NCBI RefSeq assembly: GCF_019038415.1
Contig: NZ_JAFKRG010000009.1
Span: forward strand, 62,001-126,000
Length of the DNA: 64,000 bases
Reading direction: 5' to 3'
Source: Synechococcus sp. CCY 9618
GTDB taxonomy: Bacteria; Cyanobacteriota; Cyanobacteriia; PCC-6307; Cyanobiaceae
The position numbers and the translations under genes were made by a program. Within the stretch, counting starts at the first letter, position 1; every line of letters begins with the position of its first letter. Of this stretch, positions 41,940 through 47,997 are shown piece after piece. A model generated the notes under the pieces. That model saw only the letters and a program-made list of their open reading frames with translations, ran no database searches and was not told the origin of the DNA.

Positions 41940-42144
41940 GTCAGTGCGGGCAGGAAGTATTTCAGGTTAAAGATGTCACCTTTCAGTCTCCCGATCAGTC
42001 TTCGTGCAGAGCCTCCTCGCCCTCCTGTCTGCGGCACAAGCTTTGGCGGCTTGTCTCAGCAGCCACGGCCATCACATTGGTCGTAAGGCCGTTCCTGTGG
42101 GCTTCTCGGCCGGAACATGAACAGGCCAAGCCACCGGATCCGGT

Positions 42145-43209
42145 TCAGGACTCGTCCCGCAGCAGGGCAGTGGCATCGTCACCGAAGTGTTCGCCCAGGG
42201 CCTGGAGAAGGGCGTGGGGCAGGGGGATTCCATCGCGGCGCCGTTCCCTTTCGGTGAGGCGTTCCCGTTCGCCGGGATAGAGAACCTCATCACCGGCATC
42301 GATGGGAGGGGTGGCCTTCAGTCCGGCGATGGCGGCTTCAACCCGCGCTTCAACCTCGGCCCGCCCGTTCCAGGCCGCCCCATCAAGCACCCAGAAGAGA
42401 TGGCCGGTGCCGTTGGCGGCGTCATGCACCGCCTTGCGCTTGAACATCGCCGCGTCTGTGCCCAGCAGCGGCCCGCAAAGCAGGTCGGCGATGAAGGCCA
42501 GCCCGGAACCCTTGGGGGAACCCGGCGCATTCACCGCAGATGCTGCCGGGTCGAAGGTGTCGCGGCCCTCGGCGTCGAGCGCCCAGCCGGGGGGAATCGG
42601 CAGGCCCAGGTAGGCGAAGTGGCGGATGCGGCCTCCACTCACCGTGCCCGCCGCCATGTCGAGCACCACGGGGGTGTCCCCACAGGGAATCGCCCAGGAG
42701 AGGGGGTTGTTGCCCAGGCGGGCCGCGCAGCCGCCGAAGGGGGCCAGATCCACGGCGTTGGTGTCGCTGGTGGCGAAGCCCACCATGCCGGCGGCGGCGG
42801 CCATGCGGGTGTAGACCCCCGCCACGCCGAAGTGGTTGCTGTTGGTGACGCCCACGGCGGCCATCCCCGTGGTGCGGGCCACCTCGATCGCCCGTCCCAT
42901 CGCCTGCGCCGCGGCGTACTGCCCCGGGCTGCGATCGGCGTCGACCCGCATCAGGCACCCGTGGGTGGCTTCAAAACGCAGCGTGGGGGAGGGGTTGATG
43001 CGCCCATTGCCCAGGCTGCGGTCATAGCCGATCAGCTGCTGCAGGCCATGGGAATCGATGCCCCAGAGATGGGCCTGCACCAGGTGGCTGCGGATCACAG
43101 CGGCCACATCGGGGCGGACGCCATGGCGGTCCAGCATCGCGCCGATGAAGCGGTCGACCCGCTCTGCGGGCACGCGTAGGCAGGCCCCGTCGGCAGCCGT
43201 CATGGCCAT
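42145..43209 (-). CDS. Ldh-family NAD(P)-dependent oxidoreductase (malate/L-lactate/ureidoglycolate type)
   Basis: 354 residues of the type-2 malate/L-sulfolactate dehydrogenase family. VQAHLWGIDSHGLQQLIGYD gives the catalytic-His region, VGVTNSNHFGVAGVYTRMA and GNNPLSWAIPCGDTPVVLDMA are strong family motifs. Substrate specificity (malate, lactate, ureidoglycolate, 2,3-diketogulonate) cannot be told. ATG 43209 directly abuts the VanW stop (43210), so it is the second gene of a two-gene unit with vanW upstream on the minus strand. Confidence 0.92.
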   Translation of the reverse strand: MAMTAADGACLRVPAERVDRFIGAMLDRHGVRPDVAAVIRSHLVQAHLWGIDSHGLQQLIGYDRSLGNGRINPSPTLRFEATHGCLMRVDADRSPGQYAAAQAMGRAIEVARTTGMAAVGVTNSNHFGVAGVYTRMAAAAGMVGFATSDTNAVDLAPFGGCAARLGNNPLSWAIPCGDTPVVLDMAAGTVSGGRIRHFAYLGLPIPPGWALDAEGRDTFDPAASAVNAPGSPKGSGLAFIADLLCGPLLGTDAAMFKRKAVHDAANGTGHLFWVLDGAAWNGRAEVEARVEAAIAGLKATPPIDAGDEVLYPGERERLTERERRRDGIPLPHALLQALGEHFGDDATALLRDES

Positions 43210-44028
43210 TCAGTCAGGCAGGGTGGCCAGGGGACGGTAGTGGCTGATGAAGCGGTAATCCAGCCGCCACCCCAGGGCGTCGTCTTCGCCGGGGCCGGCC
43301 GTCGCCATCCAGCGGCGGGTCTCCACCCGGCTGCCAGGGTGGCCACCGGCGGCGGGGGGCGGCAGCCAGGCGATCACCCGCGAGTCGAGGCGCACCTGGA
43401 GCGGACAGGGGGCCCGGGCGAGGAGGGCGGCCTCCAAGCTCCGCCCGTCGCCGCTGCGGTGCAGCCGCATCGCCAGGAGCAGCGGCACGGCGTGGTCGTT
43501 GCGGGCCAGCAGGTTCTTGAAGCCGTAGGCCACCGCCGCGTCCTGCCCCAGCACGAAGAAACGATCCTCTCCATGCACGTCGGTGCTGTGGTTGCTGTGC
43601 TCCAGCAGGGTGCAACCGGCCCGCAGCAGGGCGCCGAACAGGGTGGTGGAGACCTGGCAGAGCCCCCCCCCGGTGTCGCTGCGCAGGCGACCGTCCACGA
43701 GCATCGGCCCGGCGCGGTAGCCGTTGCCCAGGCAGGGGCGAGGCACGTGGTGCCAGAAACTCAGCACCTCCCCCGGTTGGATCACCACCCCGTGCAGCTG
43801 GTCGATCGCCCGCTGCATGTTGTGCAGCCGGTCCGCCTCGGCCGAGTCCCCACCGCGTCGCTTCACCGGCGTGACGCACGTCCCCCAGCACCAGGGGTAG
43901 GTGGTTTCTGCGGGGCCCTTCAGGCGCCGCGCGAAGCGGCGGCGGTGGCCCCGGCGCCGGTACCCCCATTCGATCCACCCCTGGCGCAGGCAGGCCCGCA
44001 GAGGCTGGGCCCAGGCAGGCAACGGCAT
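43210..44028 (-). CDS. VanW-like protein
   Basis: 272 residues from ATG 44028. The VanW core is clear: ETTYPWCWGTCV, GEVLSFWHHVPRPCLGNGYR and SDTGGGLCQVSTTLFGALLR with the conserved Cys and Gln. VanW is an accessory protein of some glycopeptide-resistance (vanB) clusters, and it has no known enzymatic mechanism. The N-terminus (about 40 basic residues) has no signal peptide. It is divergent from the kamA/ATP-grasp/MurJ series, 63 bp away, and the cell-wall theme of both sides is the reason this neighbourhood is highlighted. Confidence 0.9.
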   Translation of the reverse strand: MPLPAWAQPLRACLRQGWIEWGYRRRGHRRRFARRLKGPAETTYPWCWGTCVTPVKRRGGDSAEADRLHNMQRAIDQLHGVVIQPGEVLSFWHHVPRPCLGNGYRAGPMLVDGRLRSDTGGGLCQVSTTLFGALLRAGCTLLEHSNHSTDVHGEDRFFVLGQDAAVAYGFKNLLARNDHAVPLLLAMRLHRSGDGRSLEAALLARAPCPLQVRLDSRVIAWLPPPAAGGHPGSRVETRRWMATAGPGEDDALGWRLDYRFISHYRPLATLPD

Positions 44029-44091
44029 CGATGACGGCGCCCTGAAACCGCCATTCTGGCCGGGTCGGATGACTGGCTTAGCATCCCGCCA

Positions 44092-45213
44092 ATGGTCCTG
44101 TGGCAAGACGAGCTGAGCAGCGGCCTGCGCCAGGCACGGGCGCTCGCTGCTGACCCTTCCGGCGCCGGGTTGCCGCTGCCGGAGGCGGATCAGCCGGCGG
44201 TGGCCGCGGCGGGCGAGCGCTTTCCCTTCCTTGTGCCCACCGGCTACGCCGACCTGATCGACTGGAACGATCCCGGTGATCCGTTGCGGCAGCTGCTGAT
44301 GCCCACCGCCGCGGAGGAGAGCCCCGAAGGATCCCTCGACACCAGCGGAGAAGCCCTCTCCACGATCGTGCCGGGTCTGCAGCACAAGTATGAGCAGACC
44401 GCCGTCTTTCTGCTGACCGAAGCCTGTGCCGGCCATTGCCGCTACTGCTTTCGCCGGCGGCTGATGAGCCGGGACGTGATGACCAAGGAGACGATCGAGG
44501 ATCTCGAAGCGGCCGTCGCCTATGTGGCCGCCCATCCGGAAGTGGAGAACGTGCTGCTCTCGGGGGGCGACCCGATGATCTGCAGCACCCGACGCCTGGA
44601 GCGATTGTTCGAGGCCCTGGCCCCGATCCGGCATCTCTGGCAGCTGCGCATCAGCACCAAACTGCCGGCCTTCCTGCCGAGCCGGTTCAGCAGCGACCCG
44701 GCCCTGCTCGATCTGCTGCGCCGGCTGCGGAGCCGCTTCCAGATCGTGGTGCAGTGCCACTTCGACCACCCCCGCGAGATCACCCCCGCGGCCGAACGGG
44801 CGATCGAGGCGCTGCAGGACAGCGGCTGTCTGCTGACCGCCCAGATCCCCTTGATGCAGGGGGTGAACGCCGACGTCGAGGTGCTCACAGAGCTGTTCAA
44901 ACGCCTGCATCGCCTCGGCGTTCTGCCCCAGTACCTCTTCCATCCGCGGCCGGTGCAGCACGCCACCCATTTCCAGCTGCCGCTCCTCGACGGTCTGGCG
45001 CTGGTGGAGGCGGTGCGCCGGCGCTGCAACGGGCCCGTGAAGCGCTTCCGCTACATCCTCACCCATGCCGACGGCAAGCTGGAACTGGTCGGGCTGCTGC
45101 CGGGCCGGGATGGCCAGCTGGTCTGCCGCTGGCATCAGGTGCGCCGGGGAATCAGCCGCGAAGGCCTCCACCTCGCAGCGATCACCCCCGAAACGACCTG
45201 GCTCCAGCAGTGA
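44092..45213 (+). CDS. KamA-family radical SAM aminomutase (lysine 2,3-aminomutase-like)
   Basis: 373 residues. The radical SAM cluster motif is TEACAGHCRYCFRRRL (CxxxCxxC, near residue 107), followed by VLLSGGDPM and the TIM-barrel with IPLMQGVNADVEVLTELFKR. Lysine 2,3-aminomutase makes beta-lysine, and the related EpmB acts on EF-P modification; this protein is shorter than clostridial KamA (about 415 residues) and lacks an obvious C-terminal zinc-binding tail. The stop overlaps the next ATG by one base (TGATG), so it is translationally coupled to the ATP-grasp gene. Confidence 0.9.
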   Translation: MVLWQDELSSGLRQARALAADPSGAGLPLPEADQPAVAAAGERFPFLVPTGYADLIDWNDPGDPLRQLLMPTAAEESPEGSLDTSGEALSTIVPGLQHKYEQTAVFLLTEACAGHCRYCFRRRLMSRDVMTKETIEDLEAAVAYVAAHPEVENVLLSGGDPMICSTRRLERLFEALAPIRHLWQLRISTKLPAFLPSRFSSDPALLDLLRRLRSRFQIVVQCHFDHPREITPAAERAIEALQDSGCLLTAQIPLMQGVNADVEVLTELFKRLHRLGVLPQYLFHPRPVQHATHFQLPLLDGLALVEAVRRRCNGPVKRFRYILTHADGKLELVGLLPGRDGQLVCRWHQVRRGISREGLHLAAITPETTWLQQ

Positions 45214-46208
45214 TGCGGATCGGGCTGCTGTACGAAACACGTGACGAGCTGCTGGCCGGCCCCGCCGCCCGGGAGGAGACCCACTACCACTGGCGGGAGC
45301 CGGAGGAACTGGATGCGGTGGAAAAGGCCCTGCTCCAGCTGGGCCACCGGGTGGAGCGCCTCGGGGGTGTGGACGCCCTGCTGCGGGTCGGGACGGCCGG
45401 GGGCGGCGCAGCGCCGGATCTGGTGATGAACCTGTCGGTGGGGGCCCTCTCCCGCAGCCGGACCGCGATCGCCCCGGCGCTGCTGGAGCACCTGGGGATT
45501 CCCTACACCGGTGCTGATGCGGCCGCCAAGGCACTGGCCCTCAACAAGGACTGGCTCAAGCCCGTGATGCTCTGGGCCGGGATCGCCACCCCGGCCTGGC
45601 GTCTGATCGGTCCGGCGGAACCGGTGCAGGTGCTGCCGGACTGGCCGGTCTCGATCCTCAAGCCGGCCAGCGAGGGTTATTCCCTGGGGCTGCGACGCTT
45701 CGAGAGCGCCTGGGGGCTTGCGGCCCTGCGGCAGCTGGTGGACAGCCTGCGCCAGGACTTCGGCGGCTCGGTGCTGTGCGAGGAGCTGATCGCCGGGCGG
45801 GAGGTGAGCGTGGGGGTGGTGGGCAACGGGGGCGAGGGGACCGCTCTGCTGGGCGCCGTGGAAACCCTGGCGGCTGACGGCTCGGCGCTGGGGGAGCGGC
45901 TGCTCGACCTGACGGCCAAGCGTCGGGGCGGCCTGATCAAGGTGGCCGTGGACCTGAACGAGCCCGTCCTGCGGCCGCTGCGCCGCGGCGCCCTGCGGCT
46001 GGTGGAGCTGCTCGGTCCGCTCGATTACGCCAGCTTCGACTTCCGCATCGACGCCGCCGGCACCGCCCACCTGCTGGATCTCAACGCCGATGCCACCCTG
46101 CACCCGCAGCGGTCGCTGGCGCAGGTGGCGGCCCAGGCGGGCATGGCCTATCCGGATCTGATCGGCGCGATCGTGGCGGCGTGCCGGCGCCGGCACGGCG
46201 GGCCCTGA
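45213..46208 (+). CDS. D-alanine-D-alanine-ligase-like ATP-grasp enzyme
   Basis: 331 residues from ATG 45213 (MRIGLLYETRDELL). The N-terminal domain is as in Ddl (DLVMNLSVGAL), then GIPYTGADAAAKALALNKDW with the ATP-grasp lysine, the loop KPASEGYSLGLR (Ddl usually PSREGSSVGV) and the metal site LLDLNADATLHPQRS in place of EVNTLPG-type. It therefore keeps the fold and likely ATP use, but the substrate loops differ from canonical Ddl. It is coupled to kamA upstream and overlaps the MurJ-like gene by 28 nt. The acceptor could be beta-lysine or another amino acid; that is inference. Confidence 0.85.
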   Translation: MRIGLLYETRDELLAGPAAREETHYHWREPEELDAVEKALLQLGHRVERLGGVDALLRVGTAGGGAAPDLVMNLSVGALSRSRTAIAPALLEHLGIPYTGADAAAKALALNKDWLKPVMLWAGIATPAWRLIGPAEPVQVLPDWPVSILKPASEGYSLGLRRFESAWGLAALRQLVDSLRQDFGGSVLCEELIAGREVSVGVVGNGGEGTALLGAVETLAADGSALGERLLDLTAKRRGGLIKVAVDLNEPVLRPLRRGALRLVELLGPLDYASFDFRIDAAGTAHLLDLNADATLHPQRSLAQVAAQAGMAYPDLIGAIVAACRRRHGGP

Positions 46209-47812
46209 GCGGGGTGGGGGAGCGTCGCTCCCTGCTGGGGATCGCCGGGGTGGTGGGGGTCGCCACGGCCCTGAGCAAGGGGCTGGGGCTGGCACGCTCC
46301 ATGGCGGTGGCGGCGGTGTTCGGTGTCGGGGCGGTGGCCGACGCCTTTGCGTTCGCCACCATGCTCCCGGGCTTCTTCCTGGTGGTGCTGGGCGGCCAGA
46401 ATGGGCCGCTGCAATCGGCCCTGGTGAGCGTTCTCAGCCAGGACGAGGGGCTCGACCAGCAACGCCTGATCGGCTGGGCCCAGCGCGGCCTGACCCTGGT
46501 GCTGCTGCCCCTCAGCCTGGGGATCGTGCTGGCGGCCGGGCCCCTGCTGGAGCTGCTGGCGCCGGGGCTCAGCGACGAAACACGGCAGCTGGCGGTGTTG
46601 CAGCTGCGCTGGATGGCGCCGATCGTGCTGCTTTCCGGCTGGATCGGGGTGGCGATGGCCCGCCTGATCAGCGCCGGTGTCTACGCCATCCCGTCGCTCA
46701 GCCCGATGCTCTCCAGTGCGGCGGTGATCGCCGCCGCCGCGGTGGCCATGGCACAGGGGCGCTGGTTCACCCCGGGCTCACCGACCTGGATGGCGGCCGC
46801 GTCCCGCACCCTGGCCCTGGGCATGGTGCTCGGAGCCCTGCTGCAGTGGCTCCTGCAGCAGCTGGCGATGGGGCGCCTGCCGCGTGCGGCCGAGCCGGCG
46901 CCGCCCCGGCCTGCCGGCACCAACCGGCCGGCCGCTGAAGCGAAGCGGAAGGTTCTCGCCCTGCTGGCACCGGCGACCCTGACGACGGCGCTGGGAAGCG
47001 CCAATGCCACGGTGGATCTGATCTTCGCCTCCTATCTGCCGGGGGTGGCCGCCGCCCTCGGCTATGCGGAGGTGCTGGTCCAGGCGCCGCGCGGATGGGT
47101 GGCCAGCATGCTGCTGGTCCCCCTGCTGCCGGCCATCGCCCGGCAGGCCGCTCAGGGGGAGCCGGCCCAGCTGCGCGAGCGGGTGACGCTGGCCCTCCGC
47201 CTCACCGGCTTCGTGGCCGTTCCCCTTGCGGCCCTGGTGGCGGCCCTGGCGGAGCCGATGGTGGCCACCCTGTATCAGCGGCGGGCCTTCGACCCGGAAT
47301 CGACCCGCCAGGTGGCGGGGCTGCTGCTGATCTACGGCATCGGCATCGTGCCCAGCCTGGTGCGCGATGTGATGGTGCGCGTCTTCTACGGGCTGGGTGA
47401 TGGGGCCACACCGTTCCGCGTCGGCCTGGCCTCCGTCGTCCTGAACGTGGTCCTGGATGCGGCCCTGGTGCAACGTTTCGGAGCACCGGGTCTGGTGCTG
47501 GCCTCGGTGGGCGTGAATCTGTTCGCCGCCCTGCTGCTGGCCATCGCCCTGGAGCGGGCCCTGGGGGGGATCGCCTGGTGGAGCCTCAGCGGCGATCTGC
47601 TGGCCAAGACGTTGGCGGGCCTGCTCGCCGCTCTGGCGGCATGGAGCCTCTGGCAGATGGGCGGGGTGCTGCCGCAGTCGGAGGCCTTCCCCATGGCCCT
47701 GCTGCGCCTGGCGGCGGCAGGGGCGGCAGGCGCACTGACGTTCCTCGCCGTGGCCCGGCTGCTGGGCATCCGCGACGGGGAGCGGATCCTGCGGGGCAGG
47801 ACATCCGGCTGA
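46181..47812 (+). CDS. murJ: MurJ-like lipid flippase (MviN family)
   Basis: 543 residues from GTG 46181 (GTG 46214 is an alternative), with 14 hydrophobic helices expected. The N-terminal LLGIAGVVGVATALSKGLGLARSMAVAAVFG and the helix-2 GVGAVADAFAFA pattern are typical of MurJ, the lipid II flippase of peptidoglycan synthesis; RRAFDPESTRQVAGLLLIYG and FYGLGDGATPFRVGLASVV are also characteristic. It overlaps the ATP-grasp gene, forming a kamA-ligase-murJ operon. It could be the cell's main MurJ or a paralogue dedicated to a modified lipid; copies elsewhere cannot be judged from this window. Confidence 0.85.
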   Translation: MPAPARRALSGVGERRSLLGIAGVVGVATALSKGLGLARSMAVAAVFGVGAVADAFAFATMLPGFFLVVLGGQNGPLQSALVSVLSQDEGLDQQRLIGWAQRGLTLVLLPLSLGIVLAAGPLLELLAPGLSDETRQLAVLQLRWMAPIVLLSGWIGVAMARLISAGVYAIPSLSPMLSSAAVIAAAAVAMAQGRWFTPGSPTWMAAASRTLALGMVLGALLQWLLQQLAMGRLPRAAEPAPPRPAGTNRPAAEAKRKVLALLAPATLTTALGSANATVDLIFASYLPGVAAALGYAEVLVQAPRGWVASMLLVPLLPAIARQAAQGEPAQLRERVTLALRLTGFVAVPLAALVAALAEPMVATLYQRRAFDPESTRQVAGLLLIYGIGIVPSLVRDVMVRVFYGLGDGATPFRVGLASVVLNVVLDAALVQRFGAPGLVLASVGVNLFAALLLAIALERALGGIAWWSLSGDLLAKTLAGLLAALAAWSLWQMGGVLPQSEAFPMALLRLAAAGAAGALTFLAVARLLGIRDGERILRGRTSG

Positions 47813-47851
47813 GCCAAGCCGGAGCTGAGCACCGAAGCCTGGCGTGGCTCA
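47810..47851 (+). terminator. Possible transcription terminator after murJ
   Basis: TGAGCCAAGCC at 47810-47820, which includes the murJ stop codon, pairs with GGCGTGGCTCA at 47841-47851 with one mismatch, making a long stem. No T-run follows at once (a T-rich stretch begins about 25 bp later), so it is a hairpin of uncertain strength. Confidence 0.4.
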
Positions 47852-47997
47852 GAGGGTGTTGACCAGGGTGGGCTGTTTCTTTTGTGGAGATTTCATGACG
47901 GCTGCGATGGCGTAGAATGCAATCTCTTGGTACTGAATCTGTGTGGCCACTCCGGCTGTCACCACAGCTGGTATCTGCAAGTGAGATTTTTAACAAA

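Follow-up and report, generated by a model that had tools for sequence, protein, structure and literature searches.

What kind of pathway would bring together, in a picocyanobacterium, a lysine-aminomutase-like radical SAM gene (KamA), a D-alanine-D-alanine-ligase-like (Ddl-like) ATP-grasp gene, a MurJ-like flippase gene and a gene of the VanW family? The question is raised by a 64,000-nucleotide stretch of Synechococcus sp. CCY 9618 (assembly GCF_019038415.1, contig NZ_JAFKRG010000009.1, positions 62,001 to 126,000 of the forward strand), referred to here as the window. A sequence-only reading of these four genes had proposed that beta-lysine or a similar amino acid is ligated to a carrier or cell-wall precursor, which is then flipped by MurJ. 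We find that five genes constitute a genuine, intact and portable cassette, which occurs in three related picocyanobacteria in otherwise unrelated surroundings. We give about an even chance to the view that this is an accessory cassette for a small biosynthetic pathway, in which a dedicated paralogue of MurJ, MurJ2, would deal at the membrane with a ligated amino-acid product (probably of a beta-amino acid).

The cassette (42131..47857) consists of two divergent units, VanW and a dehydrogenase gene reading leftward and KamA, the ligase and MurJ2 reading rightward. The positions and strands of the four genes first recognised are confirmed: VanW lies at 43210-44028 on the minus strand, and the KamA-like gene (44092-45213), the ATP-grasp gene (45213-46208) and MurJ2 (46181-47812) lie on the plus strand. 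The same holds for the 1-nt overlap of KamA with the ATP-grasp gene (TGATG, 45211-45215), the 28-nt overlap of the latter with MurJ2 (46181-46208) and the 63-bp divergent intergenic region between VanW and KamA (44029-44091), presumably a shared promoter region. These genes do form one unit, but its membership had been given incompletely. A fifth gene, encoding an NAD(P)-dependent oxidoreductase of the Ldh_2 (malate/L-lactate/sulfolactate dehydrogenase) family (42145-43209, minus strand), immediately adjoins the VanW stop codon (43210) and is part of the unit. The long minus-strand open reading frame (43210-45534) that covers VanW and runs opposite to KamA is an artefact of high GC content; the start of VanW itself is near 44028.

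In blastn comparisons, a single 5.7-kb block (window 42131-47857) displays about 91% nucleotide identity to each of two other genomes of the genus (G040, L057 9586-15323; G457, L091 7734-13475), and the window shows no similarity to either locus outside this block. The edges fall 14 bp past the Ldh_2 stop codon and 45 bp past the MurJ2 stop codon. On the MurJ2 side the two other genomes have slightly more sequence in common, and neither of them matches the sequence flanking the copy in the window. The ratio of nonsynonymous to synonymous substitution rates (dN/dS) against the other two copies is 0.17-0.41 for all five genes, which indicates purifying selection. The recurrence of the block at this identity with unrelated flanks, together with these ratios, shows that it is real beyond chance.

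The KamA of the cassette is present in 3 of the 42 genomes of the genus, one carrier being Synechococcus sp. CCY 0621 (L093), and close copies of the ligase, VanW and MurJ2 are confined to the same genomes wherever they were sought in relatives. The expected conservation of gene order stands within the genus, where the order is kept wherever the unit occurs, but not across cyanobacteria, where only the KamA and ATP-grasp pair recurs. A general cyanobacterial operon of VanW, KamA, ligase and MurJ was rejected, as it was not found in 386 genomes of the phylum, and VanW homologues elsewhere stand alone. The GC content of the cassette (71.6%) is near that of the window (69.4%). No near match to the whole block was found in PLSDB, so that its carriage on plasmids is unsupported, and inspection of the three sets of boundary sequences by eye, with no formal repeat search made, revealed no obvious att-like borders.

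The best family models of the KamA-like protein were those of EpmB, KamA and AblA-like proteins, and every score was under the curated cut-off: 156 bits against the AblA cut-off of 525.4 and 197.6 against 199.2 for the lysine 2,3-aminomutase models (TIGR03820 and TIGR00238), and 206.7 against 369.3 for the EpmB model (TIGR03821). The protein aligns with the lysine 2,3-aminomutase of Clostridium subterminale (2A5H; 161.6 bits) and resembles it in the radical SAM fold, the CxxxCxxC motif, the carboxylate Arg134 and the pyridoxal phosphate (PLP) lysine Lys337. It differs in that no LAM_C domain was found and in that Arg and Ile replace the lysine-selecting Asp293 and Asp330 (D293R and D330I, the Arg type) in all three cassette copies. 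From established knowledge of the 2A5H structure, we take these two aspartates to hold the epsilon-amine of lysine; glutamate 2,3-aminomutase has Lys and Asn at the two positions. Since both residues are altered in all three copies, while Asp293 is kept in all lysine-type (D-type) homologues aligned and in Escherichia coli EpmB, beta-lysine is an unlikely product of this enzyme. The earlier proposal that a lysine 2,3-aminomutase supplies beta-lysine for ligation to a wall precursor can point to the conserved fold, cluster motif and PLP lysine, but these replacements make it highly improbable.

A role in beta-lysylation of elongation factor P through EpmB was likewise rejected, on account of the same residues, the scores under cut-off and the lack of any EpmA over cut-off in the genome (best match, 238.3 versus 286.9 bits). 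The absence of EpmA had been noted in the sequence-only reading, which had also named grouping of KamA with EpmB as evidence that would count against it; KamA falls outside the EpmB group. The closest relatives identified are of the Arg type, namely proteins encoded on symbiotic plasmids of Bradyrhizobium, Rhizobium and Sinorhizobium together with a single Paenibacillus protein, all of which form one clade with the cassette KamA (support, 100/99), although the branches are long and the finer order is unsure. The rhizobial proteins share with it the Arg at position 293, the S/T-H-x-x-G-K motif around the PLP lysine and a C-terminal HQ motif, but are only about 36-38% identical, and their neighbours are gamma-glutamyltransferase, 7TM and ectoine or diaminobutyrate genes, with no VanW or MurJ. 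The Arg-type KamA subfamily, common to picocyanobacteria and legume symbionts and mostly located near amino-acid ligases, is annotated as lysine aminomutase despite having lost the lysine-binding residues.

The ligase shows a comparable departure. It matches the Ddl family (PF07478, E value 3e-13), and its AlphaFold2 model (predicted local distance difference test score, 86.8) has the DdlA structure 8evx as best match in the PDB (E value 1.7e-22). It shares with Ddl the fold, the metal residues D257 and N272 and Lys215, and has Asp in place of E270. However, the DdlB substrate residues E15, S150, Y216 and R255 are changed in all three copies (E15 lost, S150Y, Y216R and R255S), of which the E15 column, in a gapped region, is the least certain position. 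The ordinary Ddl of the genome is encoded elsewhere (G000:C10) and retains S150, Y216 and R255, with Asp in the gapped E15 column. The possibility that the cassette ligase is an ordinary Ddl and the only one in the genome, which had been recognised as fatal to the four-gene proposal, was therefore rejected. The changed substrate residues in both enzymes suggest that KamA and the ligase have each departed from their textbook substrates, lysine and D-alanine.

The partnership of these two enzymes extends beyond the cassette. Full-length ligases (E value < 1e-28) occur in 8 of the 386 cyanobacterial genomes, and in each of the eight a KamA homologue lies within 1.5 kb. In filamentous cyanobacteria, KamA and the ligase stand side by side or flank a SET-domain protein or a 348-amino-acid protein of no Pfam family, and no VanW, MurJ or Ldh_2 was found near these loci, each of which is apparently an uncharacterised biosynthetic cluster. 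Among GTDB genomes, KamA occurs with one or two such ligases in Planctomycetota, Gemmatimonadota (one with a GNAT protein), Acidobacteriota and Chloroflexota. For the full-length relatives of the ligase in Myxococcota and allied groups, the stretch examined contained no KamA. The clusters of Nostocales and of these four phyla resemble the cassette in that KamA adjoins a homologous full-length ligase; they differ in having a lysine-type KamA (Asp293), in their SET, GNAT or 348-amino-acid partners, and in that no VanW, MurJ or Ldh_2 was detected beside them. As for Arg-type KamA, the Bradyrhizobium gene is followed by genes for a gamma-glutamyltransferase, a 7TM_transglut protein and a relative of the cassette's Ddl-like ligase, and the surroundings of the Sinorhizobium and Rhizobium genes include LAL_C2 L-amino-acid ligases as well as ectoine or diaminobutyrate genes. 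No description of the five-gene combination was found in the literature, in which an earlier mention of the KamA and ATP-grasp pair is possible, most likely in Iyer et al. 2009.

MurJ is normally a housekeeping gene, and the genome holds a canonical copy (G000:C20), as does every genome of the genus that was searched. MurJ2 passes the lipid II flippase model (TIGR01695; 300.5 bits versus a cut-off of 235.55) and carries Lys, Arg and Asp where the E. coli protein has R18, R24 and D39 (K18, R24 and D39 equivalents), charged residues of the first helices that are mostly as in canonical cyanobacterial MurJ. It differs from that flippase in being an extra copy, 45% identical to the canonical MurJ of its own genome. 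The three cassette MurJs sit on a very long branch (2.74 substitutions/site) apart from all canonical cyanobacterial MurJs, and MurJ2 is changed at 32 of 120 positions otherwise conserved in canonical MurJ. With a canonical MurJ present and this long separate branch, a sole or recently duplicated flippase was rejected.

Such divergence would also suit the main rival explanation, that the cassette makes a soluble beta-amino-acid dipeptide for secretion or storage (an osmolyte, signal or antimetabolite) rather than part of the wall, with MurJ2 as a mere exporter. Proteins of the MOP superfamily export various substrates, and the absence of MurJ and VanW from the KamA-ligase clusters of other phyla, like the position of rhizobial Arg-type KamA beside L-amino-acid ligases and ectoine-type genes or beside gamma-glutamyltransferase and a 7TM protein, is what a soluble product would predict. 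Against this stand the score of MurJ2 over the MurJ equivalog cut-off, its retained residues at R18, R24 and D39, and the VanW gene in the unit, which hints at the envelope; on balance we regard the soluble dipeptide as a doubtful, though serious, candidate.

The VanW-family protein (PF04294, E value 9e-33; 113 bits versus a cut-off of 27) keeps the Cys and His motifs GGGLCQVST and LEHSNHS. It is soluble: no signal peptide-like, anchor or membrane segment was found (maximum 19-residue hydropathy, 1.2), and Pfam detects no domain besides VanW, hence no peptidoglycan-binding domain. No solved structure resembles it by sequence, and a second, different VanW is encoded elsewhere in the genome (G000:C40). 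In Clostridioides difficile, some VanW proteins are L,D-transpeptidases and others are without that activity (PMC12729407). The cassette VanW shares the VanW domain with its Cys and His with two of those transpeptidases, LdtCd4 and LdtCd5 (PMC12729407), but has neither membrane anchor nor peptidoglycan-binding domain. Because it lacks any anchor or signal-like segment, its action, if any, is probably cytoplasmic. The Ldh_2 protein (PF02615, E value 5e-96) best matches type 2 malate/lactate dehydrogenases, with 1vbi as its best solved relative (E value 3e-47), and is 84-85% identical in the other two cassette copies.

An Ldh_2 enzyme, a Ddl-like ligase and VanW resemble in kind the VanH, VanA and VanW of glycopeptide-resistance operons, and the cassette is portable. 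One could therefore imagine target modification, in which Ldh_2 would form a 2-hydroxy acid, the ligase a depsipeptide, and VanW and MurJ2 would handle the altered precursors, giving protection against wall-directed compounds of competitors. However, Ldh_2 belongs to a family other than VanH, the unit boundaries enclose no VanX-like gene, such a pathway would have no use for KamA, and the ligase, without the substrate triad of Ddl, scores far under all Van models (46 bits versus a cut-off of 775 for the VanA-type ligase). This role is possible but less likely than export of a soluble peptide, and we consider it improbable.

Returning to the accessory biosynthetic pathway, we infer the following chemistry. 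The Arg-type KamA would move the alpha-amino group of its substrate to the beta carbon with S-adenosylmethionine and PLP, the substrate being not lysine but perhaps an amino acid with an acidic side chain. The Ddl-fold enzyme would then couple the rearranged amino acid to another small molecule or to a precursor, and the result, free or on a lipid carrier, would pass the membrane via MurJ2, while the soluble VanW and the Ldh_2 dehydrogenase might make or trim the partner molecule. This scheme is suggested by the conserved five-gene block with its unrelated flanks and purifying selection, the linkage of KamA to the ligase in all eight cyanobacteria with a full-length ligase and in four other phyla, the rhizobial Arg-type KamA genes near Ddl-like or LAL_C2 genes, the additional MurJ and Ddl, the fold and residues of the ligase, and a VanW family that includes L,D-transpeptidases (PMC12729407). 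The sequence-only reading is thus partly supported, in that its coupling and extra-copy logic hold and its beta-lysine does not.

Several observations weigh against the scheme. VanW has no signal peptide or anchor, unlike the proven L,D-transpeptidases of C. difficile; catalysis by the ligase is likely but not certain, given the Asp at E270; no ligase adjoins the Arg-type KamA of Paenibacillus; and both VanW and MurJ are missing from the KamA-ligase clusters found elsewhere, which leaves MurJ2 and VanW of a single cassette as the basis for an envelope role. Only tentatively, then, would we narrow the scheme to a transferable second envelope-precursor pathway, in which KamA and the re-specialised Ddl would yield a precursor that contains a beta-amino acid, flipped by the diverged MurJ beside the lipid II route and acted on by VanW. 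If true, a diverged MurJ locked in a portable cassette with a ligase and an aminomutase would offer a rare example from nature of a flippase dedicated to a non-standard precursor.

The related loci have further features of their own. The 348-amino-acid protein (L051 12745-13791, L053 8948-9994) has no Pfam or NCBIfam match and looks amidinotransferase-like by eye, which is unconfirmed, and the SET-domain protein (L052 10689-11138, L056 10036-10626) lies between lysine-type KamA and the ligase in filamentous cyanobacteria. In Cylindrospermum sp. NIES-4074 (L102 4212-6427), about 1.06 kb of additional sequence interrupts KamA, and in G364 (L054 9265-9906) the N-terminal half of KamA is missing, the adjacent ligase being intact in both. 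Two tandem Ddl-like ligases accompany KamA in Planctomycetota, Gemmatimonadota and Acidobacteriota (L104, L106, L116, L120, L122 and L140), with a GNAT gene between the tandem ligases and KamA in L120, and proteins of 684-806 amino acids with two D-Ala-D-Ala-ligase-like domains are encoded in Kofleriaceae and deltaproteobacterial genomes (L097 1818-4067; L112 2108-4528; L111 3171-5225). On the rhizobial plasmids (L181 7731-12496; L184 6481-10316; L185 7842-12984), the KamA of the Arg type, which bears the annotation lysine 2,3-aminomutase, lies in or near amino-acid-ligase operons and is surrounded by transposases or recombinases. Finally, most of the listed records of Pseudomonas putida phages (about 200 kb; H21-H27, H30) contain a KamA-family protein, annotated as hypothetical and about 34% identical to the KamA of the cassette.

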